64,000 nucleotides of DNA from Halichondria panicea (lineage: Eukaryota > Porifera > Demospongiae > Suberitida > Halichondriidae): the NCBI RefSeq assembly GCF_963675165.1, contig NC_087390.1, positions 5,638,750 to 5,702,749 of the forward strand. The letters are read 5' to 3'. Within the stretch, counting starts at the first letter, position 1, and each line of letters starts with the position of its first letter. The notes under the pieces were generated by a model. It saw only the letters and a list, made by a program, of their open reading frames with translations, had not been told where the DNA came from and did no database searches. The position numbers were made by a program, and so were the translations under genes. This document shows, piece after piece, positions 1,992 through 63,270 of this stretch.

Positions 1992-3960
1992 TCATACACA
2001 GGTACTAGGTGTCTCATAGTCTGATATTGCAGGGGCCAGTTCATAAGGTACGTCCTCAAAATCTGCATCTCCATAAATTGGATTGACGAATTCTGCATCG
2101 TTGAGTAATTCCTGGCTGCCATATATCGGGTTGTCAAACTCTGCTGTTTCTGAAGTGATTGTATTTGTTCTGTTAGTCCTGTTCTCAGGAATCCCATACA
2201 CTGGGTTGTCTCCAGGTATGTAGGAAATGGTGTCTCCTGTGGAAAACAACAGAATGAAATTATTAGTAAATATCCTTTCATGAGCTACTGAAACATGTTT
2301 ACTCACCATTCAGGTATCTTTGTAAAGAAAGTAAACAGTGTGTGTAGCTACTTCCATGTTAGGTGGACAAACAGCTTACCTTGCGAGTGAGTGTCTTGAA
2401 TGGTCTTCCCCTGAGCTCTCCTCCGCACACACACCACCACGACCACTATCAGGAGCAGGAGTATCAGCATCAGCACTAGGAGACCTCCCACCATTCCTCC
2501 TATCAGACTCCATGGAGCACCACGCAACGCTGCAGGAGGTATTATACAGAGTACATATAATCAGTTAGAATACCTGCAGACAGTGTAGTGTTGCACATCT
2601 CTCCAGTGAAGTCAGACTCACATTCACAACTGAACGAGTTGACACCATCCACACACACACCATTTCCACTGCAGTTCCTATTCACACAATCATTAATGTT
2701 GGTCTCACAATCAGCACCAGTGTAGCCAGGTTCACAGTCACATAGGAACATGTTTACCATGTCAACACAACCACCATTTCCACTACAGTTTATTCCATCA
2801 CATTCATCAATGTCAGTCTGGCAAATAGTATCAGTGTAACCAGGGAAACAATCACAATCAAAGCCGTTAACTCTGTCAGTACAGTTGCCTTGTCCACTGC
2901 AGTTTACGTTTACACAATCATCAATGTCAATCTCACATTTCTGTCCAGTGTACCCAGGATCACATGAGCAGGTGAAGGAGGCTATTCCATGAGAGCAGTT
3001 ACCGTGGCCACTGCACATCCTCTCCATTAACAAGCACTCATCAATATCCACCTCACAATCAGCACCAGTATAGCCAGCATTGCAGACACAGGTGTAAGAG
3101 TTGACCTCATTCATACAGTCACCATTTCCACTGCAGTTCTGCCCCTCACAATCATCAATGTCCTCACAATCAGCACCAGTATAGCCAGCATTGCAGACAC
3201 AGGTGTAGGAATCAAGGTCGTTTGTACATGTTCCTTGGTCACTGCATGTGACAGCATTGGACTCACAGTGATTGAAGATGTCACAAATGCTTCCTGAGTA
3301 GAATGGAGCACACAGCACAGTAGCACTCAGAGTGATAACTGCTTCGGTACTTGATGAGGCAGAAAATGGCTCTGTCGATTCCACTGAAAGACTAAGGTCA
3401 AATCGATATCTTGCAATAAGATCCTCTGATCTGCTATCAGAATCAAGCACTTGTATGTAAAGTTGAGCTCCCTGCAAAAGACAGTAAATTGAAATGCAAT
3501 AAACACAACAGTATATTGAAATGCAGTACCTCCCAGGCTGTCGATATTCCAGTCAGATTGAATGGATTAGAGAGTCCTAGTACAATAGGTTGTGAGAAAT
3601 CAATGTCTGCTCCGTCAGTTATAAAACTAGTGACTAGAATATCTCCGGTCTTATTATTGGAACACCCTTCAGCAGTACTGGCATGTGGCATCAGGCAGTA
3701 GATAAAGTAGGTGTCACAGAGGTCAACTCCGCTACATTCTTCACGGCTTGAATCACAACATTGGCCATCTGAGCGTCTGTTGAATGGATTACTGTAGGAG
3801 AGCACCTCCACTTGCACCACATAGTCTGCAGACACCAGTACACTGAGCTGCAAGCATTGGGACATCAACTGCAGCTACTGACTATTATACCACTCACCTT
3901 CCCCAGCCATAGACACAGGCAGCTCATACACAATACAAGGACACTCATTCTCAGCAGCAT
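1992..3960 (-). CDS. G1: Delta-like EGF-repeat membrane protein, cassette I tail
   Basis: Five exons fit GT-AG rules: 3898-3960 signal peptide (starts MLLRMSVLVLC), 3530-3868, 2574-3471, 2380-2529 and 1992-2236; together 564 residues in frame. Residues about 22-185 resemble the MNNL domain of Notch ligands (CDTYFIYCL, PFNLTGISTAWE). The short VLCAPFYSGS..CDIF piece matches only the start of a DSL domain. Six EGF repeats follow (about 201-427), most with DIDDC/DIDEC calcium-binding starts and all in one exon. The transmembrane segment is about 441-466, followed by a basic stop-transfer. The tail has NPVY, two NPIY, VPYEL and SDYETP, and ends STCV, a class I PDZ-ligand pattern like that of Delta proteins. 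It is the best intact cassette I member and a likely surface ligand or receptor. The function is inferred. Confidence 0.85.
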
Positions 3961-4082
3961 ACAGTAGTTCAATAGCTAGCAACTATCTTGTTTGAGATGA
4001 TAACAGCTATCTTGATGAGAGATGTGATGATCTATATATGTAGCTAGTCCTGAACCCACACATCCTGTTACCTTTATTTTAT

Positions 4083-4726
4083 CACATGATGCATAATATA
4101 ATAGCACTCAGAGTGATGACCGCCCCAGTATTTGATGTGGCTGAAAATATAGCCTTGTGATTCCACTGAGAAACTGAGATCAAATCGATACCTTACAATA
4201 CGATCATCTTGTGAATTGTTATCAAAATCAAACACTGGTATGTAAAGCTGAGCCCCCTGCAATAACAAAATTAGGACAGTAAATTGAAAATAGTGATCAC
4301 AGTATACCTCCCAGGCTGTCGATATTCCAGTTAGATTGAATGGATTCGGGAGTCCAAATACATTACGTTGTAAGAAATCAATGTCTGCCCAATCAGTGAT
4401 AACGCTATATACTGACTAGAGTATCTCCGAGCTCATTATTGGGACACTCTATATATAGTAGTACTGGCACGTGGCAACAGACAGTAGGTGAAGTAGGTGT
4501 CACAGTTACTGGCTGAATCACAAGATAGTCTGTTATGGCGTGTGTTGGATGGATGACTGTAAGAGAGCATCTCCACTTGCACCACATAGTCTGCAGACAC
4601 TAGTACACTGAGCTGAAAGCATTGGGACTCTCAACTGCAGCTACTGACTATTATATCACTAATTCCCCAGCCATAGACACAGCCAGCTCATACACAATAC
4701 AAGGACACTCATTCTCAGCAGCATGC
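4083..4726 (-). pseudogene. G2: 5' fragment of a Delta-like EGF gene
   Basis: Only the 5' half of a family G gene remains. The signal-peptide exon ends at 4726; its donor, CACTCAC|CTT on the plus strand in all relatives, reads CACTAATT here, so the GT is lost. The MNNL exon at about 4310-4627 is frameshifted. The start of the EGF exon (4257 downward) breaks off at about 4100 and joins sequence that resembles the upstream region of G1. No EGF repeat, membrane segment or tail belongs to it. It is a deletion remnant of a tandem duplicate. Confidence 0.8.
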
Positions 4727-5024: not shown

Positions 5025-5344
5025 TCATTGCCTCATGTTGACATGATCATAGATATCACTAGTCTGTCCCAGTTCATCCTCACGCTCGGCAACGGTTGAA
5101 TAGCTAACATTTACATTTATCACGAGTCTCTTGTCATTCTCATCCACACTCTCATACACTAGTGGGAGGAGCTCCGACACATTACACAGGGGGTAGTCAT
5201 ATTCCAGCTCTTGTAGAGAGGAGGGAGGTGGACCAGTAGGGAGGGTGCTGGTTTGAGTTGAGTTGTGTTCATCTCACACACACCATGTACCATACACCAC
5301 GTTGTTCTGACATGGTATGTCATTGTCGGCTGCTCCTCTACTAA
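5025..5344 (-). pseudogene. Orphan cassette II tail exon
   Basis: The segment is homologous to the last exon of G6 (41451-41764), with PPLVYESV- and VSYSTV-like codons and the same ATGAGGCAATGA-type end region. No transmembrane or EGF exon of the same type lies on its 5' side; the next sequence to the right is non-coding. A 7-base insertion near the VVYG codons creates an early stop. Equivalent orphan tails occur at 51236-51430 and 63621-63776, each followed by the same non-coding block, so they spread by segmental duplication. Confidence 0.65.
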
Positions 5345-5580: not shown

Positions 5581-5584
5581 TGAT

Positions 5585-8191: not shown

Positions 8192-10264
8192 TCATACACA
8201 GGTACTAGGTGTTTCATAGTCTGATATTGCAGGGGCCAGTTCATAAGGTACGTCCTCGAAATCTGCATCTCCATAAATTGAATTGACCAGTTCTGCATCG
8301 TTGAGTGATTCTTGGCTGCCATATATCGGGTTGTCAAACTCTGCTGCTGTTTCTGAAGTGATTGTATTTGTTCTGTTAGTCCTGTTCTCAGGAATCCCAT
8401 ACACTGGGTTGTCTCCTGGAATGTAGGAAATGTTGTCAACTGTGGAAACAACAGAAACATATTAGCTCATGAGCATACTGAAAGAACACACTCAGAGATC
8501 TTGTTGTAAAGTAAACTAATTATAGGTATAAGTAAACATGCAGCGTGTATAGTATACACTTCCATGTTTAATAGGTGCTTACCTTGCGAGTGAGTGTCTT
8601 GAATAGTCTTCCCCTGAGCTCTCCTCCACACACACACCACTACGACCACTATCAGGAGCAGGAGTATCAGCATCAGCACTAGGAGACATCCCACCATTCC
8701 TCCTATCAGATCCCCTAGAGCACCACGCAACTCTGCAGGAAGTATATATATATAAAAAGTACATATAATCAGTTAAATACCTGCAGACAGTGTAGTGTTG
8801 CACATCTCTCCAGTGAAGTCAGACTCACATTCATAACTGAACGAGTTGACACCATCCACACACACACCATTTCCACTGCAGTTCCTATTCACACAATCAT
8901 CAATGTTGGTCTCACAATCAGCACCAGTGTAGCCAGGTTCACAGTCACATAGGAACATGTTCACCATGTCAACACAACCACCATTTCCACTACAGTTTAT
9001 TCCATCACAATCATTAATGTCAGTCTGGTAAATAGTATCAGTGTAACCAGGGAAACAATCACAATCAAAGCCATTGACTCTGTCAGTACAGTTGCCTTGT
9101 CCACTGCAGTTTACGTTCAAACAATCAGCAATGTCAATCTCACATCTCTGTCCAGTGTAGCCAGGATCACATGAGCAGGTGAAGGTGGCTATTCCATGAG
9201 AGCAGTTACCGTGGCCACTGCACATCCTCTCCATTAGCAAGCACTCATCAATATCATCCTCACAATCAGCACCATTATAACCAGCATTGCAGACACAGGT
9301 GTAAGAGTTGACCTCATCCATACAGTCACCATTTCCACTGCATCTCTGCCCCTCACAATCATCAATGTCATCCTCACAATCAGCACCAGTATAGCCAGCA
9401 TTGCAGAGACAGGTGTAGGAATTAAGGCCATTTGTACATGTTCCTCTCCCATTGCAATTTCTTTTGATACAAAAGTTTTGGCGCTCACAGTTTGCACCAA
9501 AGTAGGGAGGGATACAGTTGCAAGTGAAACTAGTAAATCCATTCACACATGTTTCTCGTTCACTGCATGTGACAGCATTGGATCCGGACTCACAGTGATT
9601 GAAGATATCACAACTTCTTCCAATGTAGAATGGAGCACATAACACAGTAGCACTCAGAGTGATAGAAGGCCCGATAGTTGATGACCTAAATAATGGGATT
9701 GTTATTCCCACTGAAAGACTCAGAATATCAAATCGATACTTTACAATAATATCATCTGATGTCCAAGTATCAGAATCAACCACTTGTATATAAAGCTGAG
9801 CTCCCTGCAACAACAAAAGACAGTAAATTGAAATGCATGCAATAAAGTCATTACCTCCCAGGCTGTCGATATTCCAGTCAGATTGAATGGATTAGGGAGT
9901 CCAAAAACATTAAGTTGTAAGAAGTCAATTTCTGCCCCATCCCTGATAACGCTACTGACTAGAGTAAATCCAGGAGCAGTATTGGGACACACTTCAGCAG
10001 AACTGGCACGTGGCAACAGACAGTAGGTGAAGAAGGTGTCACAGTTACTGATTGGATCACAAGCTTGACCGTCTGAGCGTGTGTTGGATGGATTACTGTA
10101 GGAGAGCATGTTCACTTGTACCACATAGTCTGCAGACACCAGTACACTAAGCTGCAAGCATTGGGACCTCAACTGCAGCTACTGACTATTATACCACTCA
10201 CCTTCCCCAGCCATAGACACAGGCAGCTCATACACAATACAAGGACACTCATTCTCAGCAGCAT
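8192..10264 (-). CDS. G3: Delta-like EGF-repeat membrane protein, cassette I tail
   Basis: Exons are 10202-10264 (signal peptide), 9855-10172, 8781-9804, 8583-8732 and 8192-8439, giving 600 residues in frame. The architecture matches G1: MNNL-like domain, shortened DSL-like segment (CAPFYIGRSCDIF), then seven EGF repeats, one membrane segment and a tail with NPVY, NPIY, NSIY and SDYETP ending STCV. The extra EGF (NFCIKRNCNGRGTC) is also found in G5 and G11. Two EGF repeats have lost a disulfide cysteine to tyrosine: DTIYQT in the fifth and SFSYECES in the seventh, where relatives have DTICQT and SFSCECES. Those domains may fold poorly, although the frame is fully open. Confidence 0.82.
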
Positions 10265-11304
10265 GCAGTAGTTCAATGTAGCTGGGCTAGTGTCTATCTT
10301 GCTTGAGATGTTAAGCAGTTAACAGCTATTTGTGATGTGATGTGATGATATCCGATTCACATGCATCCTGCTAGCATTCGATGCTTATTGATTGATATCA
10401 CAAGATATAGAGAAGGAAAGACACTCAAAACAAACTTGTGTCTTCACAGGATGTTCATTCATGTAGCCAGCACATTCAGTGATAGCCATAGCTACATGAC
10501 CATTGCCTAGTCTCCCACATCACTTAAACTACAAGCAAACACTTGTCACTTAGGCTATCAAGAGGTATACCAGCCTATAAGCTATAGATTTAGATCTACA
10601 CATGCATTGTGTTAGAGACAAGAATATGGACCCCAGAGTCTCCCATGAAGCCACTTAAATTACAAGCAATGAGATGAGATAACAAAAGCAGTTGTCATGA
10701 CATCACAAGATGAATCAACACAATACAGATTCGTAATAATGAACACACGCACTTTTACACACTTACACTAGCTAGTGTCCAGTCAACCGGTTACTAAAGT
10801 CATGTGATCCCTCGAGTGTTCCCTAGTAATATAGTTACAACGCTAATATCACCATCGGTCAAATTCTCTCGAGTGATAATAAAGACTGTATTCCCATAAT
10901 TATGTTCTCTACTACATTTTTCGAAATCAGATCATTTTCGTGGAATTGCGATTTTTTTTTTAAAGCTTGCAGATGACCTCTCAAGCTTTACTTCTCTTAC
11001 CTAGACAATTCCGCCATCTTTAAATTGTCACAATACGTTACCTCGTGGCCACTATAATTATCAGGATATAGTCAAGCATTATTACAGTATAACAATGTAC
11101 ATGCTGATTGAAAGGACATGCACAAATTACCATTACAAGCTTCTCACTTGCGTATAACTACACAGAGCTAACAAGATATGTAATGGGAAAACTGATCGGA
11201 TCAGTGAAAACTAAGCTCACCAAATAAAAGAATTGTGCACAAATAAAAGTCATTGCCTCATGATGACATCATCATAGACATCACTAGTCTGTCCCAGTCC
11301 CTCC
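10265..11304. repeat. Repeated 5' flank of G genes, no coding sequence seen
   Basis: This intergenic stretch recurs upstream of most G genes (about 19130-19680, 40490-41450, 43340-44307, 48110-48640, 60470-61000). Recognisable words are TATGGACCCCAGAGTCTCCC and TCAACCGGTTACTAAAG. Its conservation reflects duplication of whole gene units and may include the shared promoter, but no core promoter motif is evident. Confidence 0.6.
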
Positions 11305-14300
11305 TCACGCTGCATAGCTAACATTTACATTTATCACAAGTTTCTCATCAACACTCTCATCCACTGGTGGGAGGGGCTCCGACACATTACACAGTGAGCA
11401 GTCATATTCCAGCTCTTGTAGAGAGGGGGGTGGGCCAGTAGGGAGGGTGTTGGTTTGAGTCATCTCACACACACCATACACCACGTTGTTCTGACATGGT
11501 ATGTTGTTGTCGGCTGTTCCTCCACTAACTGCACCTCCATCAACTGTATGAAGAGTATCAAGTTATTGTACAGAACACATACACACTGAGATTGACCTAC
11601 CGTCATATTTAGACGACTCTTGCTTGTTCTTGACGATAATCACTATGACAATGACTATGACTACAATTAGTACAATCCCTACCAGTCCCCCGACTACTCC
11701 ACCGGCTATAGTAGCTGTTGTATCATCTGATCTCATCTCTGCAGTATAGAAAGCAAACACATACAGCATGCATTCACAATGGATCTAAATAAGCTGTCTA
11801 ACGTGGCAGAGAAGTTAGTGTTTACCTAGCCTCGACTCAAGTCCGCTTTACAGCGGCCTGGTATACCTTGTATGCGCATGCGCGAAATAATTCGTATATT
11901 TATCAGTATTACGCAAGTGATAAAATCGGACAATGTACACAAAGGAAAAATACGTAAGACTGCGTGGTTGGTGGTAGAATGTTCAAGCCCACAATGGCAG
12001 CCACCAGAATATGCAGATTGTGCTGCAACATTGTTACTTCTACTCGCTGCTCAGCTCTGTTCAGCAAAGAGTCTGTTCAAAGATGCCTTCCAGACAGACT
12101 TGGCAAACTGCTAGAGCTGCCAGTTAGTGAGTGTGATGGGCTATCTTCATACATTTGTAGAGCTTGCACAAACAAATTTCAGTCTCTGGAGTCTAAACTT
12201 AAAGCCTTTAGAAGTATGGCTAAGTGTGGTTTTGAGCAGGGTCGAAATAAGGCTTCCATCTGTAGTCCTATGGTATCAGGTAGGAAGAGAACTAAAGACA
12301 CCAGTGGGCTTGAAGCATCACCTCACACTGTCCATGCTAGACCTCTAGCAAAACGTCTGACAGTAGGAGCACCTGGAAGAAGGCTTGCTTTCTCAACCAG
12401 GGAGGAACGTAGGTTGATTGCAACAAATCATATATGTAGATGACAGGAATCATCTCTTTTTCATAGCGCACACAGACTGTCCTCGTCAGCCACCGCTGTT
12501 AGAGTTGACCAATCTCGAGCAGTTTTCTTCTGTTGACGGTATGTTAAACAACCTACAAACGAAATGAACGTAAATTAATATATAGCCATTAACTTAAAGG
12601 TTCAGAAGGTGTTGCAAGAGATATTTCCAAGCCTGGTTCGACTGAAACAGTTATGGTGAGGATAACAGATCTGATACTGTAAACACACCAAAATTAATTA
12701 AACAATATACAGATCACAGTGAGCTCACCCAGTACAGTGACTGCGGAAGTAGATGAAAGTCTCCAGAAATTACGCCAGGCACTGAATAGTGGCAACATTC
12801 AGTCTATTGCCAAGGAAGCATTTTCTTGCCCTTCACTGAAGGACCAATTGGTAGAGGGTGTGGTGAAAATTCTTGACGACGAATGTTCCACTCTATGTCG
12901 TAACTCTGGGGAGTTTGTCTCTCTATTTCACCGGGTTCCAATTGACAATGTGGAAGCATTATCGTGGAAACAGGCTGTGTGTGAACTACAGCGAAAGTCT
13001 CCGATTCTATTTAGGCTTATCCAGACGATCGTAGGACGTTCAGATCATAGGAACTTGCATAAACGCAGAGAGAGTCACTACCCTGGGATGTGTATGGCCA
13101 CAGCAATTCTCTTGAAAGAGCGTAACACAAGAATGTGTGGTATTCAGTCGTTTCTGTCTCTCGTACTCTTCAACTGTAGAGTAAACAAAAAGGTTTGTAC
13201 ATGTACATGTACATGTATGATGTGTGTCCACTACGTATTTTCAGATACAGGTATAATTATTATATCACAGAGAGGGATTGGAAACGGAAGTTACCTTGCC
13301 GCGTTAGGCCAGGGTTTAATCGAGGCTACAAAATGTATGTATGATTGTAACGTTAGTAAAATCTAGACTAGATAGTGCCTGCAGTATACTCCCAACTGTC
13401 ACCTGAGGAACGTATGGATTGACACATGCAGTACACTGATAATTAAGTATTACCATTAGCTAGAAGCATACTCATAAAGATCTCAGAGCATGACACTCTT
13501 TGTAGCTATTTTGAAAAACGTATTTTTTTCCAAAGGATGCTCACCATTATAGAGGGCATGAGAATGCATGTTGTTTTAGGGGGGCTTTGAATGCATTAAT
13601 TGCAGTGGTCTTAATTCCAGAAACATTGTTTCCCCAAGTGCTGCACAACCGTACACAGATTTAAAAATTAATGTAACGCGATGCTACCTCCGTTTCCAAT
13701 CCATCTCCTCTTATATAATTATGATTACATTGAATTACTCACAGGTATACTCCAGGCTGAATCATCTTAGTGTCACTATCAGTTACTGTGCCGTGTTGAA
13801 GTTAGTCACGAAAATCAGCAAGCTGCACCAACGTCCTATCGATGCCTGGATTGATGAGGGTGCATGTTTCAAGTTCGTGGGGGACAACGTTGCTAAAACA
13901 AAGGGCGTTAGAGACATACGTAGTGACCATCATGGTGAGCTAGTGCAAATGTACAGTTTGTTGGCAGTGAAGGGTCGTGTGAAAGGACCATCTCCAGTCT
14001 CAACCTTTTCCCCCCCTAACCTGGGTTCCCTAAAAATAACTCACTTCCTTCCTACAAAGGCCGACGTTGAGGGCATCCAAGAAAATTTGGTCGTTCTAGT
14101 CGGTCGAATACTGTGCGAGTACATCAAGCCCCTCCAGCGGTACAAACGGTGTGTTGTCAGTCACATTAAGCACCCCCACAGCACAGAGATGGCCAAAAAA
14201 TCTGAGGTTGTAGTCCTTGATGTTCTACACAAGAATGAGGCAAAGGCCGCAGACATGATAGACATAATGATCGAGAAACATTCATACTTGAAAGATTCTA

Positions 14301-17300
14301 TTGAACTTACTGTTATGTCAGGTGGCGATCAGATGACATGTGAAAGACAGCGATGTAGCAAAAAACATATGCGAGATGCGGACACTCGCAGTGGACGATT
14401 GGAGCAGTTAGAGCCTTGTATAGAGGACTGGCACTGCCTTATGAGTATTCTGGGGGTAGGTGAAGCACTCACTTGGACATAATATTTTATGTACATGTTT
14501 GGCTAAAAATCTAAACAAACATGCATGTGATATAATTATGTACAATATTCTGTGAAAAGCCCATTAAAACGTTAAGTACTAACTAACCTTTTATTCTTTT
14601 GCAGATCATATGGAAGCGACTCTACACCCCATACTCGAAGGACCCTGGCTCACTGGCACATCTCTTCACACAGATTGGCAGATACCTCAAGCCAGAATCC
14701 CGAAGAAAGACCTTCATGCTTGTCTCGATGCTCTTCGCGTGGTGTTTAAGGCTCATGTCATCACGATAGCACGCAAGGAACTTGGATTGGATGTAGATAT
14801 GCCAACACAAGAAGATGGCCAACGCAAGAGTATAGATGTGTCGGAATTAGCAAGGAAGATAGTGAAACAGCACACTATAGTGTCAGAAGCAATTCTTGGA
14901 GAGCCGCTTGAGGATAGCAAGGATGGTGTGTACAACTACACTAGAGTTCTGTGTCACTATGCCGCACTGGTAACAGAGTTCACAGATGCTTGGTATGAGG
15001 GAGACGGGCCACGGATACTGAGATGTTGGAAGATTTTCATGCTTCATTTCCACGCTGAAAGACGAACGAAGTACTCACTCGAGGCATTAGTGTTGCAGTT
15101 CCAGCTTGCATCACTCCCACCGGATCTAGTTCATCAGCTGACTTGGGGTAGGTTCGTTAATACACATGGAGGACCTGGCCGTAACATCCCATGCAATCTG
15201 CACAATGAACACATCAATCGGCTGTTCAAAGAGATGGTTGGTAACATGGGAGCAAACTTTACACCTGAATTAAGTACACGAGCTGCACGATCTGTGACCA
15301 CTCTCGAGAAAATGTCGAAGAAGTTTGATCATGAAACTGGTATACATCCCGAGCTATCAGCACACTCGCGTAAGTCCGACGAAAATGACGTTAACCGTGT
15401 TATGGAAGTGCTGCAACAAGTTAAACCACACACGATTCAAGAAGGACGATGTTACAGAAAGTTCCCAGAAATGTCAGGCAATCCTCTTAAGGCTTTGGAT
15501 AGAGAGAAACTTCATCTGTGGATAAAGGAGAAAATTAAACAACATGGAAAGCATAGACAGTTAACAGAAGGAAACACATCTGATCAAGAAGCTTCTGATG
15601 ATGAAAACTGAAGAGATTGATGTAAATAATTGAATCTCTAAAGCAGATTATGACAATAGCTAATTTTCATGTGTTACATACAGTGATTATTTTCCTTGAT
15701 TTATTTACGTGCGCTGCAAGTACTGCTAGCGTTCCTGTAAACCACGCGCGGAGAAAGTTTTCCTATAGGTCAGCTTGCCCACGAATAATAATTATTTTTA
15801 CAACACGAAAATTACCCGCTATTTAGTATAAAAAAGACTTACCTTCTGACTAACTTTTCCACTTTGCCTTACTCAGCAGCCTTATGCACTTACGCAATTG
15901 TCACAACACAACAAAGGGTCACATCTTTTTAGATTAGCAGCTATAGTCAAATCAAAATATTTCAGCAAAAGATAGCGGCGACAGTCTGAACAGTTCTCAA
16001 TATACCTTCTAACTGCAACTATTTCAGCATTACGAGGGTTATTCAAGTCTTTCCGCACAGGGGCATCAGATGGACGCCAGAAGATAGTCGAAGTACACAA
16101 TTCACCTCCTCTTCCAGCTCGGCCGCTTTCCTGGAAGTAGTCATCAATACATCTAGGAGCACCGTAGTGTATCGTACTGGTAAGGCCTACAAAGTTCACT
16201 CCCATTCCAAGGGCCATAGTTGCAAACACAACTCGGATCGTTCCATCAGTCTTTGCCATACCTTGCATAATAACATGCTTATTGTGATCGTCTGTTTTCG
16301 AATGATACATACCAAATGTTCTATTGTCACTTATTTCCTTAGCACCAGTGGGGTAATACGCCTTATCTCCAAGGGTGAGCAAAAAATGAGCGTATAAATC
16401 TGCACACATATCTAGGGAACGGCAGTAAACAATCACACGCCTGGCCTTGATGGAATGAGTCGCTATATCATCAACTATGAAAGAAAGATCGTGTTCTATA
16501 TCACCGGAACGTTTTTGAACGGAATAAAAAATATTCGGCTTGTTTGGAGATACAGTTACAATCTTACAGCCTTCCATCTCAAGCTTCTCAATCACTTCTT
16601 GTCGCATAACGTCAGTAACGGTGGCAGTTGATGCTAACATCGGCAGTCCAGCAGGAAGGAAGGCACGTAATTCGTTGATACGACCATAACATGGTCGAAA
16701 GTCTGCACTCCTACAACAAATACTCAGTGTTAATGCAATCATATCAAACAGTCACAATTAATACCTACCACTTATGCACACAATGGGCCTCATCCACTGC
16801 CACAGCCACCATCGATGTAGACAACGGAGGGACCAGTAAAAGTTGTTTCCAACGATGGCTACCAACAATTGCTTCAGGAGCACTATACAAGAGGCGAAAT
16901 TTTCCTTCAAGCACATCTTTCTCGTTAGCAAGGAACTTCTTATCGACCCCTTTGTTTCCACTGAGTATACCAGCAGGAACACCACGATCATGTAGACTAG
17001 TCACTTGATCTACCATTAGAGACACTAGGGGACACACAACTAACACAATACTACGCTCACTAGGAGGAGAACTGATTCTATCCAGCTTCTTGTCGAATAA
17101 ATAAGGCAAAGTTTGGTAGCAGATAGACTTTCCATATCCAGTAGGAACCCACAGGAAAACATCATGCCCTTTGTACAGCATCCGTAGAGTCTCAAGCTGT
17201 TTATCCCTCAGAACTAAATGACTTCTCTTCACACAAGAAAGGGCATAAGCCAAAGCGGAAGAGAACTCAGTGTCAGTCGAGCTAGTCATCTTTGCTATAT

Positions 17301-18748
17301 GTAAAGTGTGTAACACGGACCACTAAAATTAGAATACAAAATAGTATACGTATTTATTTTACTGACAGTATCCACAAATACACGGATTACCCCCTTTTTG
17401 GGGTAATGTAAGCGCATGCGCATACAAGGTATACCAGGCCGCTTCTAAAGCGGCCTTGAATCGAGGCTAGTGTTTACCTTGTGTCTCCACACTGCACATC
17501 TCTCCAGTGAAGCCAGACTCACATTCACAACTGAACGAGTTGACACCATCCACACACACACCATTTCCACTGCAGTTCCTATTCACACAATCATCAATGT
17601 TGGTCTCACAATCAGCACCAGTGTAGCCAGGTTCACAGTCACATAGGAACATGTTCACCATGTCAACACAACGACCATTTCCACTACAGTTTATTCCATC
17701 ACAATCATCAATGTCAGTCTGGCAAATGACATCAGTGTAACCAGGGAAACAATCACAATCAAAGCCGTTAACTCTGTCAGTACAGTTGCCTTGTCCACTG
17801 CAGTTTACGTTCACACATTCATCAATGTCAGTCTCACATCTCTGTCCAGTGTAGCCAGGATCACATGAGCAGGTGAAGGTGGCTATTTCATGAGAGCAGT
17901 TACCGTGGCCACTGCACATCCTCTCCATTAGCAAGCACTCATCAATATCATCCTCACAATCAGCACCATTATAGCCAGCATTGCAGACACAGGTGTAGGA
18001 ATCAAGGTCATTTGTACATGTTCCTTGGTTACTGCATGTGACACCATTGGACTCACAGTGATTGAAGAGCTCACAACTGCTTCCTGAGTAGAATGGAGCA
18101 CACAGCACAGTAGCCCTCAGAGTGATAACCGCCTTGATACTTGATGAGGTAGAAAATATATTTGTCGATTCTACTGAAAGACTGAGATCAAATCGATATC
18201 TTGCAATAAGATCATCTATACTGCTATCAAAATCAAACACCGGTATGTAAAGTTGAGCTCCCTGCAATAACAAAAGACAGCCTGTAATAGGTTGAAATGC
18301 ATAAAACACAGTACCTCCCAGGCTGTTGATATTCCAGTCAGATTGAATGGATTAGGGAGTCCCAATACAGTAGGTTGTGAGAAATCAATGTATCCCCTGC
18401 CTGGGATAACGCTACTGACCAGAGTATCTCCAGGCCTACTATTGGGACACACTTCAGCAGTACTGGCATGTGGTAACAGGCAGTAGATGAAGAAGGTGTC
18501 ACAGGGTTGAAATCCGATACATAGTACACTGCTGAATCGTTCACAACATTGACCATTAAAGCGTGTGTAGGATGGGTTACTGTAGGAGAGCACCTCCACT
18601 TGCACCACATAGTCTGCAGACACCAGTACACTAAGCTGCAAGCATTGGGACCTCAACTGCAGCTACTGACTATTATACCACTCACCTTCCCCAGCCATAG
18701 ACACAGGCAGCTCATACACAATACAAGGACACTCATTCTCAGCAGCAT
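11305..18748 (-). CDS. G4: Delta-like EGF gene split by a transposon, cassette II
   Basis: Exons are 18686-18748, 18315-18656, 17478-18261, 11601-11738 and 11305-11543, giving 521 residues in frame if the intervening 5.6 kb is spliced out. The protein has a signal peptide, MNNL/DSL-like region, five EGF repeats ending CSVETQG, a long Ile/Val membrane segment (IVLIVVIVIVIVIIV) and a shortened cassette II tail. A complete DNA transposon (11827-17469) lies in the intron after the EGF exon. Its 9-bp target duplication contains the splice donor, so the donor next to the exon survives. The tail is degenerate: an 11-bp deletion ends it at VSYAA, removing the VSYATV and SDVYDDV motifs, and the PPVYESV tyrosine is aspartate. 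Expression is uncertain. Confidence 0.7.
11979..15611 (+). pseudogene. DUF6589-type DDE transposase, frameshifted
   Basis: Likely exons are 11979-12435 (start could be 11994), 12467-about 12540, 12600-12657, 12713-13192, 13745-14455 and 14605-15611. The first exon has a ZAD-like zinc-binding module (CRLCC ... YICRACTNKF). The core carries candidate catalytic acidic residues in FVGDNV, SGGDQMT and NLHNEHINR, in the order and context of DUF6589 proteins. The 14455/14605 junction reads SILG|IIWKRLYTPYS in frame. The frame then changes between about 14680 and 14710: upstream bases are coding in one phase and KKDLHACLDALRVVFKAHVI in another. So the copy is either inactive or has one sequencing error. 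The first intron would be only 31 bases, so that junction is uncertain. It acts on the element's own ends. Confidence 0.75.
15882..17316 (-). CDS. RecQ-like superfamily 2 DNA helicase of the transposon
   Basis: Two exons (16769-17316 and 15882-16710) join as HKW|SADFRP and give 458 residues. Motifs in order: Walker A VPTGYGKS, motif II VDEAHCVHKWSADFRP, motif III ASTAT, VIVYCRS (motif IV), ATMALGMGVN (motif V) and FQESGRAGRGG (motif VI). A zinc-binding C-terminus CSDC ... CCDNC follows, as in RecQ proteins. No HRDC domain is present. The last codons contain a strong GTAAGT donor directly after CDNC, so a further small exon is possible. The gene lies wholly inside the transposon and its frame is open. 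It presumably unwinds DNA during transposition; the substrate is unknown. Confidence 0.88.
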
Positions 18749-22347: not shown

Positions 22348-22417
22348 TTTGAGTGGCTATGTTTAATATTCTTGCTAGTCAACAATCACAGTGAATGGTT
22401 TAATGTAACCTGTTGTA

Positions 22418-22448
22418 AGCTTATAAAGCCATTGGATATTAATTCCCC
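22418..22448 (-). promoter_or_regulatory. Putative core promoter of family B gene
   Basis: The minus strand reads AATATCCAATGGCTTTATAAG, a CCAAT-like and a TATA-like element about 75-100 bases before the ATG at 22347. The same pairing is seen before four other family members. Confidence 0.5.
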
Positions 22449-23222: not shown

Positions 23223-23232
23223 GTATCTGGAC

Positions 23233-46539: not shown

Positions 46540-48066
46540 TCATTGCCTCATGTTGACATCATCATAGATATCACTAGTCTGTCCCAGTTCATCCTCACGC
46601 TCGGCAACGTTTGCATAGCTAACATTCACATTTATCATGAGTTTCTCATCCTTCTCATCCACACTCCCGTACACTGGTGGGAGGGGCTCCGAAACATTGT
46701 ACAGGGATAGTCATATTTCAGCTCTTGTAGAGAGGAGGGAGGTGGACCAGTAGAGAGGGTGTTGGTTTGAGGTTGAACTGTGTTCATCTCACACACCATA
46801 CACCACGTTGTTCTGACAAGGTATATCATTGTCGGCTGTTCCTCCTCCACTAACTGCAGGGGGAGCAACAAGTTTGTGCACAGTACACACATGCTAAAAT
46901 AGACCTACCGTTGTATTTAGACGACTCTTGCTTGTTTTTGACAATTACTATGACAATGACGATGACAACAATCAGCACAACGCCCACTAGTCCCCCGACC
47001 ACTCCACCTGCTATAGTAGCTGTTGTATCATCTGATCTCATCTCTGCTGTATAGAAAGCAAACATGATGAAAGACTTATACAGCTTTCACAATGAATCAA
47101 AATGAACTGTCAAGTGTGATGTTTACCTTGTGTTTCCACACTGCACATCTCTCCAGTGAAGTCAGACACACATTCACAACTGAACGAGTTGACACCATCC
47201 ACACACACACCATTTCCACTGCAGTTCCTATTCACACAATCATCAATGTTTGTCTCACACTCGGCACCAGTGTAGCCAGGTTCCCAGTATAGCCAGCATT
47301 GCAGACACAGGTGTAGGAATCAAGGCCTTTTGTACACGTTCCTCGATCACTGCATGTGACAGCATTGGAATCACAGTGATCGAAAATCTCACAACTGCTT
47401 CCAGAGTAGAATGGAGCACATAACACAGTAGCACTCAGAGTGATAGCAGGCTCGGTACTAGAAAATAGCCTTGTTGATTCCACTGAGAGACGAGATCAAA
47501 TCGATACCTTACAATATGATCATCTGCATCACTATCAACATCAAACACTGGTATTTAAAGCTGAGCTCCCTGCATTAACAAAATTAGGGCAGTTAATTGA
47601 AATGCAATAAAGACAGTGATCACATTACCTCCCATGCTATCGATATTCCAGTTAGATTGAATGGATTAGGGAGTCCAAATAATATATTAAGTTGTGAGAA
47701 GTCACTGTCTGCCCCATTACCGAATAACGCTACTGACTAGAGTATCTCCGGGCTCACTATTGGGACATCCTCTATCAGTACTGGCACGTGGCATCAGGCA
47801 GTAGGTGAAGTAGGTGTCACAGCAGTCAAATCCGCTACATTCTCAAGACTGCTTGAATCACAACATCGACCATCAGAGCGTATGTTGGATGGATGACTGT
47901 AGGAGACCAGCTCCACTTGTACCACATAGTCTGCAGACACCAGTACACTGAGCTGCAAGCATTGGGACTCTCAACTGCAGCTACTGACTATTATATCACT
48001 CACCTTCCCCAGCCATAGACACAGGCAGCTCATACACAATACAAGGACACTCATTCTCAGCAGCAT
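46540..48066 (-). pseudogene. G8: degraded Delta-like EGF gene, cassette II
   Basis: All five exons are recognisable (48004-48066, 47639-47967, 47127-47569, 46909-47043 and 46540-about 46855) but broken many times. The MNNL exon length is not a multiple of three. The GAQLY codons read GAQL-stop (TAA near 47556). A base is missing near 47490. A deletion fuses the repeats CEPGYTG and CNAGYTG near 47281, leaving about two EGFs. A 2-bp deletion stops the tail after VVYGV, and another shift follows YDYP. The membrane exon itself is open. It is clearly non-functional. Confidence 0.88.
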
Positions 48067-49052: not shown

Positions 49053-50891
49053 TCATACACAGGTACTAGGTGTCTCATAGTCTGATACTGCAGGGGCCAG
49101 TTTATAAGGTACGTCTTCGAAATCTGCATCTCCATAAATTGAATTGATCAGTTCTGCATCGTTGAGTGATTCTTGGCTGCCATATATTGGGTTGTCAAAC
49201 TCAGCTTCTGTTTTTGAAGTGATGGTATTTGTTCTGTTCTCAGGAATCCCATACACTGGGTCGTCTCCTGGAATGTAGGAAATGGTGTCTCCTGTGGAAA
49301 CAACAGAAATAATTATTAGCTCATGAGCATACTGAAAGAACACACTCAGAGATCTTGTTGTAAAGTAAACTACAGTAATTATAGGTATAAGTAAACATGC
49401 AGTGTGTGTAGTATACACTTCCATGTTTAATAGGTTCTATCAAGAAAACACTCTGTAAAGTAAACTACGTAACTAAATAGTGTGTGTAGCTACTTCCATG
49501 TTAGGTACACAAACAACTTACCTTGCGAGTGAGTGTCTTGAATGGTCTTCCCCTGAGCTCTTCTCCGCACACACACCACCACGACCACTATCAGGAGCAG
49601 GAGTATCAGCATCAGCACTAGGAGACCTCCCACCGTTCCTCCTATCAGATCCCCTGGAGCACCACGCAACGCTGAAGGAGGTACACAGAATAAATATCCT
49701 CAGTTATAATTATTAAGTATATTGTAATGCCTGCGGACAGTGTAGTGTTGCACATCTCTCCAGTAAAGTCAGACTCACATTCACAACTGAACGAGTTGAC
49801 ACCATCCACACACACACCATTTCCACTGCAGTTCCTATTCACACAATCATCAATGTTGGTCTCACAATCAGCACCAGTGTAGCCAGGTTCACAGTCACAT
49901 AGGAACATGTTCACCATGTCAACACAACCACCATTTCTACTACAGTTTATTGCATCACAATCATCAATGTCAGTCTCACAATCAGCACCAGTGTAGCCAG
50001 GATCACATGAGCAGGTGAAGGAGGCTATTCCATGAGAGCAGTTACCATGGCCACTGCACACACTCTCCATTAGCAAGCACTCATCAATATCCACCTCACA
50101 ATCAGCACCAGTATAGCCAGTATTGCAGACACAGGTGTAGGAATCAAGGCCGTTTGTACACGTTCCTCGTTCACTGCATGTGACAGCACTGGACTCACAG
50201 TGACTGAAAATCTCACAACTGCTTCCGGAGTAGAATGGAGCACATAGCACAGTAGTATTCACAGTGATAGCAGCAGTCATGGTACTTGATGAGGTAGAAA
50301 ATGTGATTGTTGATCCAACTGAGGGACTTGGATTAATTTGATACTGCACAATAAGATCATCTGGATTGCCATCAGAATCAAACACTTCTACATAAAGCTC
50401 AGCTCCGGCCTGCAATAACAAAAGACAAATTGAAAAACAGTTATCGTTTTAATAATTACCTCCCAGGTTGTTGTTATTCCAGCCAGATTGAACGGATTAG
50501 AGAGTCCAAATACAGTAGGTTGTGAGAAATCAATGTCTGCTCCACCATTCCAGATAACGTTACTGCGTGTAGTAAGTTCATTATTGGAACACTCTGTAGC
50601 AGTACTGGAATGTGGCAACAGGCAGTAGATGAAGTAGGTGTCACAGCGCTCCCCTCCCCTACATGGTACTACACCATTGAATCCCCATGGTGAATCACAA
50701 CATTGACCTTCAGAGACCGTGTTGGATGGATGACTGTAGGAGACCATCTCCACTTGCACCACATAGTCTGCAGACACCAGTACACTGAGCTGTAAGCATT
50801 GGGACTCTCAACTGCAGCTACTGACTATTGTACCACTCACCTTCCCTAGCCATAGACACAGGCAGCTCATACACAATACAAGGACACTCAT
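49053..50891 (-). CDS. G9: Delta-like EGF membrane protein, cassette I tail
   Basis: Exons are 50841-50891, 50460-50804, 49731-50409, 49522-49671 and 49053-49291, giving 487 residues in frame. The signal exon lacks the usual first ATG and starts at the internal MSVLVLC. It has four EGF repeats, the fewest of the open genes. The EGF exon ends in GC rather than GT on the minus strand (CCGCAG|GCATTA), a non-consensus donor also seen in G12. The tail reads DDPVYG, DNPIYG, NSIYG and VSDYETP and ends STCV. A codon pair is lost in ENRTNTIT relative to G1. Apart from the GC donor there is no lesion. Confidence 0.75.
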
Positions 50892-55100: not shown

Positions 55101-55196
55101 TACTTCCATATAAAGAGGACCTGAAGGTATAACTTTCCACAGTCCGAGCTGACTACTATAGTGACTATATATATCAGGTTCTTTGATTTTGAAGAG

Positions 55197-55609
55197 ATGA
55201 AATTGCTTGCTGTCCTGTTTTTGGTGGCTGCCGTGGTTACTGCGTCTCCTGTGCAACAGGTAAAAGTTACTACTTGTCATTCTTTGATGTAATATATATA
55301 TAGACACATAAGCAAGACACTGCTTATAATTATGCAGGAGGAAGATGTAGCAGTTGCATCTAGCTCAGGCTTCTGTCGCAACGCTGGTAAGTACAGCAGC
55401 ATTATAGGAAGACCCCCTTTTTGTTCGCGAAACTGTGGCCGTGGCTGTTCTGGCCAGTTATACCGCTGCTAACAAGTTATGGACCGATTATGGATCCGAG
55501 TGCTGGACTGGGATGAAGATCTGCTGTTGCGGTGAGTATATAGGTCATTTGATTAGGAACAATGTGTCGATAATGTGTTTCTTTTGCATATACAGCTCCC
55601 TATAATTGA
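55197..55609 (+). CDS. Small secreted cysteine-containing peptide
   Basis: Exon 1 (55197-55259) encodes a clear signal peptide (MKLLAVLFLVAAVVTAS) and ends at a GT donor. Exon 2 (55338-55386) has an acidic start EEDVAVASS and one cysteine. Exon 3 (55408 onward) with the nearest AG gives a Cys-, Arg- and Gly-rich end (PPFCSRNCGRGC) that stops at 55470-55472. An AG three bases on (55411 onward) gives a longer product through the strong GTGAGT donor at 55532 and a last exon at 55596-55609. Which form is made cannot be decided here. A TATAAAG lies about 85 bases upstream. The family is unrecognised; a host-defence or structural peptide is possible. It is the only host-like plus-strand gene in the window. 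Confidence 0.55.
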
Positions 55610-58738
<3,129 letters not shown>

Positions 58739-60422
58739 TCATACACATGTAGGTACTACAAGTGTCATAGTGTCAGGGGACAGTTCATAAGGTATGTCCT
58801 CGAAATCTGCATCTCCATAAATTGCATTGACGAATTCTGCATCGTTGAGTGATTCCTGGCTGCCATATATAGGGTTGTCAAACTCAGCTGTTTCTGAAGT
58901 GATGGTGTTTGTTCTGTTAGTCCTGCTCTTAGGAATCCCATGCACTGGATTGTCTCCTGGAATGTGGAACTTTTATTATTATTATAGCTCATGAGCATAC
59001 TGAAAAAAACATTCTTGTAAAGTAAACTACAGTAAATAGGTAAACAGTACGTATGTGTAGCTACTTCCATGTTAGGTGCAAAAACAGCTTACCTTGAAAC
59101 TGAGTGTCTTGAATGGTCTTCCCCTGAGCTTTCCTCCGTGCACACACCACCACGACCACTATCAGGAGCAGGAGTATCAGCATCAGCACTAGGAGACCTC
59201 CCACCATTCCTCCTATCAGATCCCCTAGAGCACCACGCAACGCTGCAGGAGGTATACAGAAGGAATATCATCAGTTAGAATACATATCTCTCCAGTGTAG
59301 CCAGATCGACCCACATTCACAACTGAACGAGTTGACATGCATGCATCATCCACACACACCATTTCCATTGCAGTTCCTACAATCATCAATGTCAGTCTCA
59401 TATCTCTGTCCAGTGTAGCCAGGATCACATGAGCAGGTGAAGGTTGCTATTCCTTGAGAGCAGTTGCCGTGACCACTGCACACCCTCTCCATTAGCAAGC
59501 ACTCATCAATATCATCCTCACAATCAGCACCAGTGTAGCCAGCATTGCAGACACAGGTGTAGGAATCAAGGCCGTTTGTACACGTTCCTCTCCCATTGCA
59601 ATTTCTGTCAAAGCAAAAGTTTTGACGCTCACAGTTTGCACCGAAATAGGGACAGTTACAGTTGCAAGTGAAACTAGTAAATCCATTGATACACGTTCCT
59701 CGGTCACTACATGTGACAGCATTGGATCCGGACTCACAGTGATCGAAGATGTCACAACTGTTTCCAGAGTAGAATGGAGTACATAGCACAGTAGCTCTCA
59801 GAGTGATAGAAGGCCCGGTATTTGATGTACTCATTAATGTGTTAGTCAATCCAACTGAGAGACTTAGATCAAATCGATATCTTACAATAACATCAACTGG
59901 TCCATTATCATAATCCAGCACTTGTATGTAAAACTGAGCTCCCTGCAGTACAAGAGATGGTGCATGAATGGAAATACAATGTCAAGCAGATCATTACCTC
60001 CCAGGCTGTCGTTATTCCAGTCAGATTGAATACACGAGGATGTAAGGAATCAATGTTATCCCCATCATCAATCAAGGTACTAACTACAGTAAATCCGGGA
60101 TCAGTAACTATATTGGGACACCCTGTAGCAGTACTGGTACGTGGCATCAGGCAGTAGATGAAGTAGGTGTCACAACGCTCCCCTCCCCTACATGGTACAC
60201 CATTGCCTGGATCACAACATTGACCATCAGAGCGGGTATTGGATGGATGACTGTAGGAGACCAGCTCCACTTGTACTACATAGTCTGCAGACACCAGTAC
60301 ACTGAGCTGCAAGCATTGGGACTCTCAACTGCAGCTATACTGACTATTATACCACTCACCTTCCCCAGCCACAGACACAGGCAGCTCATACACAATACAA
60401 GGACACTCATTCTCAGCAGCAT
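58739..60422 (-). pseudogene. G11: Delta-like EGF gene truncated before the membrane segment
   Basis: Intact 5' exons (60360-60422 signal, 59998-60321 MNNL) lead into the EGF exon (right end 59942). That exon has three complete EGF repeats and part of a fourth, then stops at a TGA (59346-59348) after NGNGVCG: a base change and insertion near ATGCATGCATC break the last EGF. The product would be 327 residues with no anchor. Downstream the membrane exon (59093-59242) and a shortened tail exon (58739-58956) persist. There NPVY is NPVH, one NPIY is NAIY and SDYETP is lost, but the TCV end is kept. A secreted product is possible; I favour a decaying gene. Confidence 0.72.
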
Positions 60423-61442
60423 GTAATAGTTCAATAGCTAGCAACTATCTTGTTTGAGATGTTAACAGCTATTTGTGATGTGATGTGATGATCTTTGTTA
60501 GTACTGATTCACATGCATCCTGCTAGCATTCTATGCATTTAGTATATATTTTGATCTCGCAAGAGAAGGAAAAACACTCAAAACAAAGCATGTCTTCATA
60601 CAGGATGTTTATTCATGAACTGTATAGCTTGTATATAGAGCACATAATTATTTCATTGGTAATCACCCCCATAGCTACATGATCATTGCATAGTCTCCCA
60701 CACCACTTAAACTATGAGAGAGCAAATACTTGTCACTGAGGCTCAACCTATATAATTTATAATTAAAGCTAGATTTTAGATATACGCAGGTGTTAGAGAC
60801 AAAAATATGGACCCCAGAATCCCTCATGAAGTCACTTGAGATAGCACAAGCAGTTGTCATGACATCACAAGATGAATCAACACAATACAGATTCGTAATA
60901 ATAAACACACGCACTTTTACACACTTACACTAGCTAGTGTCCAGTCAACCGGTTACTAAAGTCATGTGATTCCTCGAGTGTTCCCTAGTAATAGTTACAA
61001 TGCTAGCAACTATCTTGTTTAAGATGTTACGCAGTTAACAGCTATCTTGTAATAATCTCTGTTCTTCCTGCTAGCACTCTATGCATAATATTATATCTCG
61101 CAAGAGAAGGAACACACTCATATCATCCTCACAATCAGTACCAGTATAGCCAGCATTGCAAACACATGCAGATGTAAGAGTTGATATTCGTTCTACCGGA
61201 ATACATGCAATAAGCAAATAAAACTGATATATAGGGTCATTCTAATGTTGTTTAACTGCACTTTTAGTCTCTTTTCTGGTCTAGATTAATAAACGTTAAG
61301 TACCAGTCGTGTGTGTGTGAGGGGGAGGGGCATCAGGTTTTGTGAACTGTCATAAATCATCGTCAGAATTAATGTACCCGTTTTGTAAACTGTCATAAAA
61401 CTCATCAACGAGGACTAGAAGCTGGTCAGTTTCTGTACACTG
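60423..61442. repeat. Segmental duplication C, copy 2, with an EGF relic
   Basis: Matches 48067-49052, including the detached EGF fragment (61128-61193). Differences are small indels. No gene is seen. Confidence 0.62.
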
Positions 61443-63270
61443 TCATACACAGGTACTAGGTGTCTCATAGTCTGATATTGCAGGGGCCAGTTTATAAGGT
61501 ACGTCTTCGAAATCTGCATCTCCATAAATTGAATTGATCAGTTCTGCGTCGTTGAGTGATTCTTGGCTGCCATATATTGGGTTGTCAAACTCTGCTGTTT
61601 CTGAAGTGATGGTATTTGTTCTGTTCTCAGGAATCCCATACACTGGGTTGTCTCCTGGAATGTAGGAAATGGTGTCAACTGTGGCAGAATTAGCTCATGA
61701 GCATACTAAAAGAAAACACTCAGATCTCGATGTAAAGTAAACTACTACAGTATAATTATAGGTATAAGTAAACATGCAGTGTGCATGTGTAGTATACACT
61801 TCCATGTTTAATAGGTGCTTACCTTGCAAGTGAGTGTCTTGAATGGTCTTCCCCTGAGCTCTCCTCCGCACACACACCACCACGACTACTATCAGGAGCA
61901 GGAGTATCAGCATCAGCACTAGGAGACCTCCCACCACTCCTCCTATCAGATCCCCTGGAGCACCACGCAACGCTGCAGGAAGTATATATACTTGCATAAT
62001 AAATATCATCAGTTAAATGCCTGTGCATGGACAATGTAGTGTTGCACATCTCTCCAGTGAAGCCAGACACACATTCACAACTGAACGAGTTGACACCATC
62101 CACACACACACCATTTCCACTGCAGTTCCTATTCATACAATCATCAATGTTGGTCTCACAATCAGCACCAGTGTAGCTAGGTTCACAGTCACATAGGAAC
62201 ATGTTCACCATGTCAACACAACGACCATTGCCACTACAGTTTATTCCATCACAATCATTAATGTCATCCTCACATCTCTGTCCAGTGTAGCCAGGATCAC
62301 ATGAGCAGGTGAAGGAGGCTATTCCATGAGAGCAGTTACCATAGCCACTGCACACACTCTCCATTAGCAAGCACTCATCAATATCATCCTCACAATCAGC
62401 ACCATTATAACCAGCATTGCAGGCACAAGAGTAAGAGTTGACCTCATCCATACAGTCACCATTTCCACTGCAGCTCTGGCCCTCACAATCATCAATATCA
62501 TCCTCACAATCAGCACCAGTATAGCCAGCATTGCAGACACAGGTATATGAATCAAGGTCGTTTGTACACGTTCTTTGGTCACTGCAAGTGACAGCATTGG
62601 ACTCACAGTGATTAAAGATTTCACAACTGCTTCCAATGTACAATGGAGCACACAGCACAGTAGTATTCACAGTGATAGAAGGCCCAGTAGTTGAGGAGGC
62701 AGAAAATGTGATTGTTAATCCAACAGAGGGGCTTGGGTTAATTCGATACTGCACAATAAGATCATCTGAATTTCTATCAAAATCAAACACTTGTACGTAA
62801 AGCTCAGCTTCTGCCTGTAATAACAAGAGACAAATTGAAAAACAGTTTTCGTTTTAAAATAAGTACCTCTCAGGTTGTTGTTATTCCAGCCAGATTGAAT
62901 GGATTAGGGAGTCCAAGTTGTGAGAAGTCAATTTCTGCCCCATTCCTGATAACGCTATTGCGTGTAGTAAGTTCATTATTGGAACACTGTGTAGCAGTAC
63001 TGGAATGTGGCAACAGGCAGTAGATGAAGAAGGTGTCACAGCGGTCCCCATCGCTACATTCTTCACTGTTTGAATCACAACATCGACCATCTGAGCGTGT
63101 GTTGGATGGATTACTGTAGGAGAGCATCTCCACTTGCACCACATAGTCTGCAGACACCATTACACTGAGCTGCAAGCATTGGGACCTCAACTGCAGCTAC
63201 TGACTATTATACCACTCACCTTCCCCAGCCATAGACACAGGCAGCTCATACACAATACAAGGACTCTCAT
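61443..63270 (-). pseudogene. G12: Delta-like EGF gene, cassette I, junction frameshift
   Basis: Exons are 63220-63270, 62867-63190, 62021-62814, 61823-61972 and 61443-61678. The usual first ATG of the signal exon is ATA, so MRVLVLC is the likely start. Five EGF repeats are intact. The end of the EGF exon differs from relatives: four extra bases (TTGTCCATGCACAG instead of CTGTCTGCAG) and a GC donor, so the exon is 794 bases, phase 2, and the membrane exon would be read in the wrong frame. No phase-restoring donor is evident. Membrane exon and tail (NPVY, NPIY, NSIY, STCV) are themselves intact, so the lesion may be recent or the junction misread. Confidence 0.65.

Follow-up and report, generated by a model that had tools for sequence, protein, structure and literature searches.

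The window analysed here, a 64-kb stretch of contig C14 (positions 5638750-5702749) in the 131-Mb genome of the sponge Halichondria panicea, contains a tandem array of receptor genes whose descent from the Notch ligand Delta we regard as secure, judging from the sequence comparisons given below. An intact gene joins a front, made up of a signal peptide, an MNNL/C2 domain and EGF repeats, to one of two transmembrane-and-tail cassettes, A or B, and the cassette carried by a front is unlinked to the front's ancestry. On a balance that tips just past even, these proteins are probably diversified cell-surface recognition receptors, derived from a Delta-type Notch ligand and equipped with two interchangeable outputs in the manner of paired immune or allorecognition receptors. 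We favour this reading because constraint on scaffold and tails, freedom in the loops, random pairing and fast turnover match what is expected of such a family.

Gene layout and outer domain

Eleven copies of the receptor gene, all on the minus strand, lie between positions 1992 and 63270 of the window; ten have a full-length exon 2 (g1-g9 and g11) and one is a fragment (g10). The tandem array of about ten genes reported in a first-pass annotation of this DNA is thereby borne out, and beyond the window it continues as far as roughly 5.73 Mb on the contig. The exons code, in order, for the signal peptide, the N-terminal half of MNNL, the C-terminal half of MNNL with a DSL stub and the EGF repeats, the transmembrane (TM) segment and the tail, and they are separated by introns of phases 0, 0, 1 and 1. 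Among the intact genes, g6 (cassette B) has its signal peptide exon at 43254..43316, exon 2 with the hypervariable loops of MNNL/C2 at 42882..43202, exon 3 at 42045..42822, the TM exon at 41815..41958 and the tail exon at 41451..41764, and the corresponding exons of g11 (cassette A) lie at 3898..3960, 3530..3847, 2574..3471, 2380..2529 and 1992..2236. Both proteins present EGF repeats and a single TM segment. The repeats, which were counted by eye on the translations (a regular-expression pattern overlooks those with a substituted Cys), number four in g3, five in g6, six in g11 and seven in g7 and g9, in agreement with the range of four to seven given previously.

The two kinds of gene diverge a few codons upstream of the phase-1 intron that follows exon 3, right after "...GEMC", with the A-type junction NTTLSA-G in g11 and the B-type junction SVETQ-G in g6, so that the unit of exchange starts within exon 3. 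The earlier description of two unrelated membrane/tail cassettes joined at the same phase-1 intron therefore stands, except that the difference begins slightly before the intron, and exon shuffling exactly at the intron is ruled out. A single gene with alternative A/B splicing was rejected as well: of the 38 fronts examined genome-wide, 35 have a TM exon within the DNA covered, which is of one kind per front, and none has complete TM exons of both kinds (read by eye), any additional pieces being remnants.

A search of the genome with the protein of exon 2 (the query is one residue off g6) gave 58 rows, composed of 42 close copies, two sub-pieces of these and 14 distant relatives. Taken as lower bounds, these counts indicate at least 42 close copies on seven contigs, with 56% identity or more and four of them partial; the distant relatives stand at 29-41% identity, and one of them is a DSL-bearing Delta. 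Exon 2 is full-length in 36 of the 38 fronts and in all 36 is flanked by AG before and GT after; in the remaining two the match is partial and does not end at an exon boundary. A genome search with a tail B query, the first 20 residues of which came from another reading frame of the exon, gave 58 rows; many of these are pieces, and the figure over-counts B tails. The clusters on contigs C14, C6, C12 and C15 each contain both cassettes. Eleven of the at least 42 close copies were covered by the first-pass annotation; the split between loops and framework, the random pairing of fronts with tails and the cassette fossils described below are new here. No description of such a receptor family was found in searches of the open-licence literature, as judged by titles and the starts of abstracts. 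Apart from these copies, C12 carries a second array (1815-1869 kb), whose MNNL genes are more distant and have many EGFs.

The outer domain proved to be a true MNNL/C2 domain, in line with the previously proposed MNNL-like domain. On the isolated stretch, the Pfam MNNL family scores 27.2 bits in g6 and 28.8 bits in g11, with a cut-off of 22.5; a Pfam scan of the whole g6 and g11 proteins did not report it. When a profile built from nine fronts (eight family members and a distant gene on C10) was searched against the PDB, all eight sequences found up to E 1 were Notch ligands, the best being Drosophila Delta (E 1.1e-10), with Jagged1 at 5.8e-7. A profile-profile comparison with five Deltas of this genome that have DSL gave a probability of 99.7 and an E value of 2.5e-26. 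The receptors also resemble these Deltas in that exons 2 and 3 apparently meet at an equivalent position within MNNL, to judge by eye and from provisional splice sites of the Deltas. The alignment to these Deltas stops after the first DSL loop; since the query itself ends shortly past that loop, the end of the alignment alone is no proof of DSL loss.

The DSL-like domain that had been proposed next to MNNL was not recovered, and we rejected it as a domain. A DSL profile search found 26 stretches across the genome and none in the window, and DSL was absent up to E 1 from the Pfam matches of whole g6 and g11. The starts of exon 3 of g6 and g11 matched EGF families and a few weak others, with no DSL up to E 10, whereas the matching stretches of two control Deltas from the same genome gave DSL at 55.0 and 47.9 bits. 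Only the first Cys loop of DSL is left, and an ordinary EGF follows. By these profile searches, the DSL domain proper is missing from the receptors, which are thus Delta-derived proteins and not canonical Notch ligands. A similarly shortened DSL region occurs in those copies of the distant C12 array (1.81-1.87 Mb) that were read.

That the receptors are divergent Deltas which bind Notch through C2, as pathway ligands or cis-inhibitors that tune development, with tails differing in back-signalling, is decidedly unlikely. The clear Delta descent speaks for it, as do three LNR stretches in the genome, which are Notch candidates, and the C-terminal ends STCV (g3, g9 and g11) and ETPV (a tail on C6), which presumably fit a PDZ-binding end. 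A search for the Notch NOD domain gave no match in the genome, but its control gave no match either; NOD and NODP have not been detected in sponges according to PMC6040629. Further in favour of Notch ligands, the five Deltas of Amphimedon have conserved ectodomains, divergent intracellular regions with predicted PTB and SH2 sites, and non-conserved DSL binding sites (PMC3482393), and they contradict the earlier statement that in published Delta families the tail is of a single kind. Like Delta/Jagged ligands, and notably like those of Amphimedon, the receptors combine a signal peptide, MNNL/C2, EGFs, a single TM segment and divergent tails with PTB/SH2-type sites (PMC3482393). Unlike Delta/Jagged, they have no detectable DSL, the main Notch-binding domain, even though the same search finds it elsewhere in the genome; they exist in at least 42 near-copies, which would be many for one pathway; two recurring tails are swapped among their fronts; and their loops have diversified. 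The fastest-evolving part is the beta2-beta3 loop of C2, which in known ligands forms Notch site 1 (PMC5538765).

Pairing of fronts with two tails

Each cassette has a tyrosine motif of its own. Among 18 A tails, FDNPIYG occurs in 17, all have at least one NPxY and 16 have at least two; in g11 the tail carries DNPVYG, FDNPIYG and FVNPIYG and ends in STCV. FDNPxY is an endocytic motif recognised by PTB domains. Tail B bears a site like the immunoreceptor tyrosine-based inhibitory motif (ITIM), VSY..[ILV], in 10 of 13 sequences, the other three being cut off or frame-broken before the end of the motif, and the tail of g6 contains NVVYGV, EYDYSL, PVYESV, the ITIM-like VSYATV and DVYDDV. The patterns applied for the ITIM and for the corresponding activation motif (ITAM) are the general consensus ones. 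In A genes on C6 (for instance at 3992250-3992800 and 3999570-4000280), tail A is extended by a partial internal duplication, in which a juxtamembrane piece (like RRAQGKTIQDTQLQG) is accompanied by a second, short tail exon.

A tree was built from 35 of the 38 fronts, two partial fronts and a distant one being omitted, and the cassette is assigned in 34 of these, 18 being A and 16 being B, with one further front unlabelled. The cassette changes at least 12 times on this tree, compared with a mean of 11.6 after shuffling the labels, and 358 of 500 shuffles were as low; the starred branches force at least six changes. With exon 2 alone there were 10 changes versus 11.2 with shuffled labels, and with exon 3 alone 10 versus 11.3. 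The chromosome label behaves in the opposite way, with six changes on the same tree, which is the minimum possible, against 16 when shuffled and none of 200 shuffles as low (the exon-wise and chromosome tests additionally omit the duplicate C6_4012056). Since the chromosome is at the minimum of changes and the cassette at the random level, fronts evolve locally and tails are dealt randomly relative to fronts. Cassette type was rejected as a clade marker, given that its changes on the tree are no fewer than random. Gene conversion may distort the tree, but we see no route to this contrast without a decoupling of front and tail. A recent duplication on C6, with an offset of about 33.3 kb between 3978.7-3982.3 kb and 4012.1-4015.6 kb, has copied one A gene and one B gene nearly unchanged.

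Up to the last EGF, the divergence between A and B genes is about equal to the divergence within each kind. Between chromosomes, synonymous divergence (dS) is 0.034 in exon 1 and 0.10 in the last EGF (0.107 for A-B pairs), as opposed to 0.36 in the front of exon 3 and 0.44 in TM-B. In three genes a distant front is followed by parts of the 3' module of the family. On C10 (3.18 Mb), exon 2 is at 32% identity, the last EGF at 86%, TM-B at 75% and tail B at 43%; on C15 (42 kb), exon 2 is at 34% and the last EGF at 92%, with a B tail at 66% downstream; and on C17 (4.36 Mb), exon 2 is at 29%, TM-B at 76% and tail B at 65%. Cassette remnants are found in both orders. Several A tails of the C6 cluster are followed by the end of a B tail, with a similar breakpoint in four of the five loci inspected, those with a B remnant, and on C17 a B gene is followed by a TM-A remnant. 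Visual inspection of the 1.4 kb past this TM-A remnant revealed no open A tail, although a degenerate start may be present there. The simplest reading of these patterns is that non-allelic recombination has acted in both directions, through the last EGF as well as the 3' flank. Unequal crossing-over together with gene conversion, which would homogenise exon 1 and the last EGF, could repeatedly join new fronts to either tail. Rapid turnover, as suggested earlier for this array, is evident.

Selection and decay

The ratio of nonsynonymous to synonymous change (omega) was estimated by codon likelihood from 31 exon 2, 32 exon 3, 34 last-EGF, 18 tail A and 13 tail B sequences, sets which exclude short or stop-containing matches and cover part of the 42 close copies. 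The names of the C2 strands and loops follow a comparison of the sequence with Jagged/Delta and PMC5538765 and do not derive from a structure of the receptor itself. The loops of exon 2 gave an omega of 1.56 (p 2e-4 against 1) and the framework 0.60 (p 0.002), the whole exon being at 1.15 (p 0.14). When only gap-free columns were used, the loops remained at 1.53 (p 0.001) and the beta2-beta3 loop reached 2.15 (p 5e-6). Values were 0.89 (p 0.23) for the front of exon 3, 0.80 (p 0.49) for the last EGF, 0.40 (p 9e-7) for tail A and 0.58 (p 0.001) for tail B. Pooled pair counts gave 0.95 for exon 2, 0.75 for the front of exon 3, 0.36 for the last EGF, 0.38 for tail A and 0.41 for tail B. In 14 independent, disjoint pairs of exon 2, loops and framework differed (Fisher p 0.006) and the beta2-beta3 loop had an omega of 1.58 (p 0.02). 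The tails and the C2 framework are thus constrained, and the C2 loops change at or above the neutral rate, chiefly the former Notch-binding loop. The check for positive selection in the MNNL exon that had been proposed for this array therefore shows that selection is not purifying throughout.

Selection bears directly on the possibility that the family merely turns over neutrally in tandem, the cassette mix being functionally meaningless and most copies decaying. The state of the window copies and an omega near 1 for exon 2 as a whole, by either method, are in line with it. The broken copies are the following, all on the minus strand: g1 (cassette A, 61443..63270) has a stop in the penultimate codon of exon 2, its start being the first remaining in-frame ATG; g2 (cassette A, 58742..60422) loses its frame in exon 3; g4 (cassette B, 46540..48066) has stops in exon 2 and in the tail; g5 (cassette B, 44308..46172), a near-identical tandem copy of g6, loses its frame at a G run in the TM exon; g7 (cassette A, 38404..40464) loses it in the tail exon; and g10 (4161..4724) is a front fragment with exon 1, a broken exon 2 and the start of exon 3. 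In g8 (cassette B, 11250..18748) the front is open and the frame of the B tail is broken. An isolated cassette B tail remnant (5028..5336, minus strand) lies between g9 and g10. Homopolymer frameshifts, such as that of g5, may be assembly errors. Against neutral turnover stand the significant purifying selection on tails and framework, measured with stop-containing copies excluded, the significant split between framework and loops, and the fact that four of the 11 window copies are fully open, so that we hold this account to be very improbable. Besides g6 and g11, the open copies are two cassette A genes on the minus strand: g3 (49053..50891; exons 50891-50841, 50789-50460, 50409-49731, 49671-49522 and 49291-49053), whose intron 3 has a GC donor (GC-AG), and g9 (8192..10264; exons 10264-10202, 10151-9855, 9804-8781, 8732-8583 and 8439-8192).

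Proposed recognition role, related systems and neighbouring elements

An immune or allorecognition role is what we infer for these receptors. The variable C2 loops may bind varied partners (lipids, glycans or proteins) on cells that are self, non-self or microbial. Through FDNPxY, tail A would couple this binding to PTB adaptors and clathrin, leading to uptake or adhesion, and tail B, through the ITIM-like VSYATV and its other YxxV sites, would couple binding of that kind to SH2 proteins, phosphatases being the likeliest, leading to inhibition or modulation. Cells could then weigh both outputs, as paired immune receptors and the allorecognition receptors of ascidians and cnidarians do. In its full form, as a combinatorial system for self/non-self or symbiont recognition built by the sponge from a Notch ligand, the proposal is possible but doubtful: DSL would have been lost, the C2 loops would have become the variable surface, and recombination at the last EGF would freely combine fronts with an output of either the uptake type (FDNPxY) or the inhibitory type (ITIM-like), so that the logic of immune receptors would have arisen here independently of receptors of the immunoglobulin kind. 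The interpretation given by the first-pass annotation, a family resembling immune or allorecognition receptors, is thus supported in part, since MNNL, the two tails, the turnover and the non-purifying selection held and the DSL domain and the single-tail claim on Deltas did not.

To our knowledge, little has been established about the receptors by which sponges discriminate between self and non-self or between food and symbionts. The present family, which is clustered and has diversified loops and two conserved tails that have been exchanged, offers a concrete candidate for them. If the proposal is true, it would show that a developmental ligand, Delta, can become a receptor of variable type, and that a paired-tail logic like that of immune receptors needs neither Ig nor lectin domains.

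Several observations weigh against recognition receptors with paired outputs. Both tail assignments depend on short motifs that arise by chance. No ITAM (YxxL-x(6-8)-YxxL) was seen in the 18 A tails, which have NPxY instead, and none of 21 TM-A sequences has a charged residue inside its hydrophobic run (both by eye), so that no textbook activating partner is apparent. Two short DSL-bearing Deltas on C2 seem to have NPxY tails (NPVYE and NPMYG, by eye), and the single copy followed in the distant C12 array has an A-like NPxY tail, GDNPAYGIPDN; hence tail A may reflect Delta ancestry and not an immune role. That seven of the 11 window copies are broken would also be expected under plain neutral turnover. 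As to selection, the beta1-beta2 loop (loop 1) alone is not above 1 (omega 0.87, p 0.51), and positive selection is modest in the 14 independent pairs (all loops 1.15, one-sided p 0.20). The limits of the loops were chosen after the alignment had been seen, 20 random column sets of equal size giving omegas of 0.89-1.41, and the constraint on the last EGF depends on the method, with 0.36 from pooled counts versus 0.80 from likelihood. Finally, gene conversion can distort trees and omega.

Vertebrate paired receptors, such as KIR and the FcR-like proteins, set near-identical ectodomains on opposite tails and turn over through recombination. The sponge family is like them in having a shared ectodomain on two kinds of tail within one cluster and an ITIM-like motif in one tail, and unlike them in that theirs are Ig domains and their activating partner has a charged TM residue or an ITAM, neither of which is seen here. 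Among working systems, the closest analogues are the Botryllus co-receptors and Draper. In Botryllus, the fester co-receptors (FcoR) of the fuhc locus, type I proteins of 520-610 aa, link their ectodomain plastically to ITIM or hemITAM output (PMC12065747). The sponge receptors share with them a large and partly clustered family, alternating tails with tyrosine motifs and this plastic link, but FcoRs are Ig/sushi receptors with ITIM/hemITAM in an allorecognition locus, and here the ectodomain is Notch-ligand C2 with EGFs and one of the tails is of NPxY type (PMC12065747).

A further likeness, to the Draper/CED-1/MEGF10 group, raises the possibility of phagocytic or scavenger receptors that target bacteria taken as food, symbionts or dying cells and have no self/non-self role, in which A promotes uptake and B dampens it; we consider this unlikely. 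The group has an EGF-rich ectodomain and an NPxY tail, and the combination of NPxY in tail A with an ITIM-like site in tail B parallels Draper-I (NPxY, ITAM), the form which promotes responses, and its alternative Draper-II (ITIM), which damps them (PMC4503800, PMC8092387). The C2 loops of Notch ligands also bind membranes, the apex loops being a lipid site (PMC5538765). Draper differs in being one alternatively spliced gene, with EMI and without MNNL, whereas the cassettes described here are fixed gene by gene (PMC8092387, PMC4503800). Up to E 1, the Pfam scan reported neither an Ig nor an EMI domain for g6 or g11, so the receptors are members of neither the FcoR nor the Draper group, and nothing ties them to phagocytes.

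Other elements lie among the receptor genes. Intron 3 of g8 contains a 5.6-kb DNA transposon (11826-17470), with terminal inverted repeats made up of a perfect 32-nt part and a 25-nt part at 92%, which we take to be Academ-like; it encodes DUF6589 (transposase-like), with a weak zf-AD-like N-terminus below cut-off, and a RecQ-type helicase on the opposite strand. A second tandem family, at 1105-1590, 21022-29493, 35533-36084 and 37628-37987, consists of single-frame coiled-coil membrane proteins that start with MTQATDYTKL... and have a long heptad-like region. One member gave 18 matches in the genome, all at 5630-5677 kb of C14, and the family could be a partner family of the receptors. On C2 (2043-2083 kb) there is a tandem array of DSL-bearing genes, two of which were read and seem to have NPxY tails, with no EGF in the stretch read. 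A pattern for the silicatein active site matches five places in the genome, three of them CGASYAF within 11 kb of C2; two of the matches were translated and run on to LSEQNIIDCS. Together with the Notch/Delta genes present, this points to a siliceous sponge. In the gene-poor part of the window, a repeat-like stretch (RPSIIRNLDYP...) occupies positions 54817-55276.

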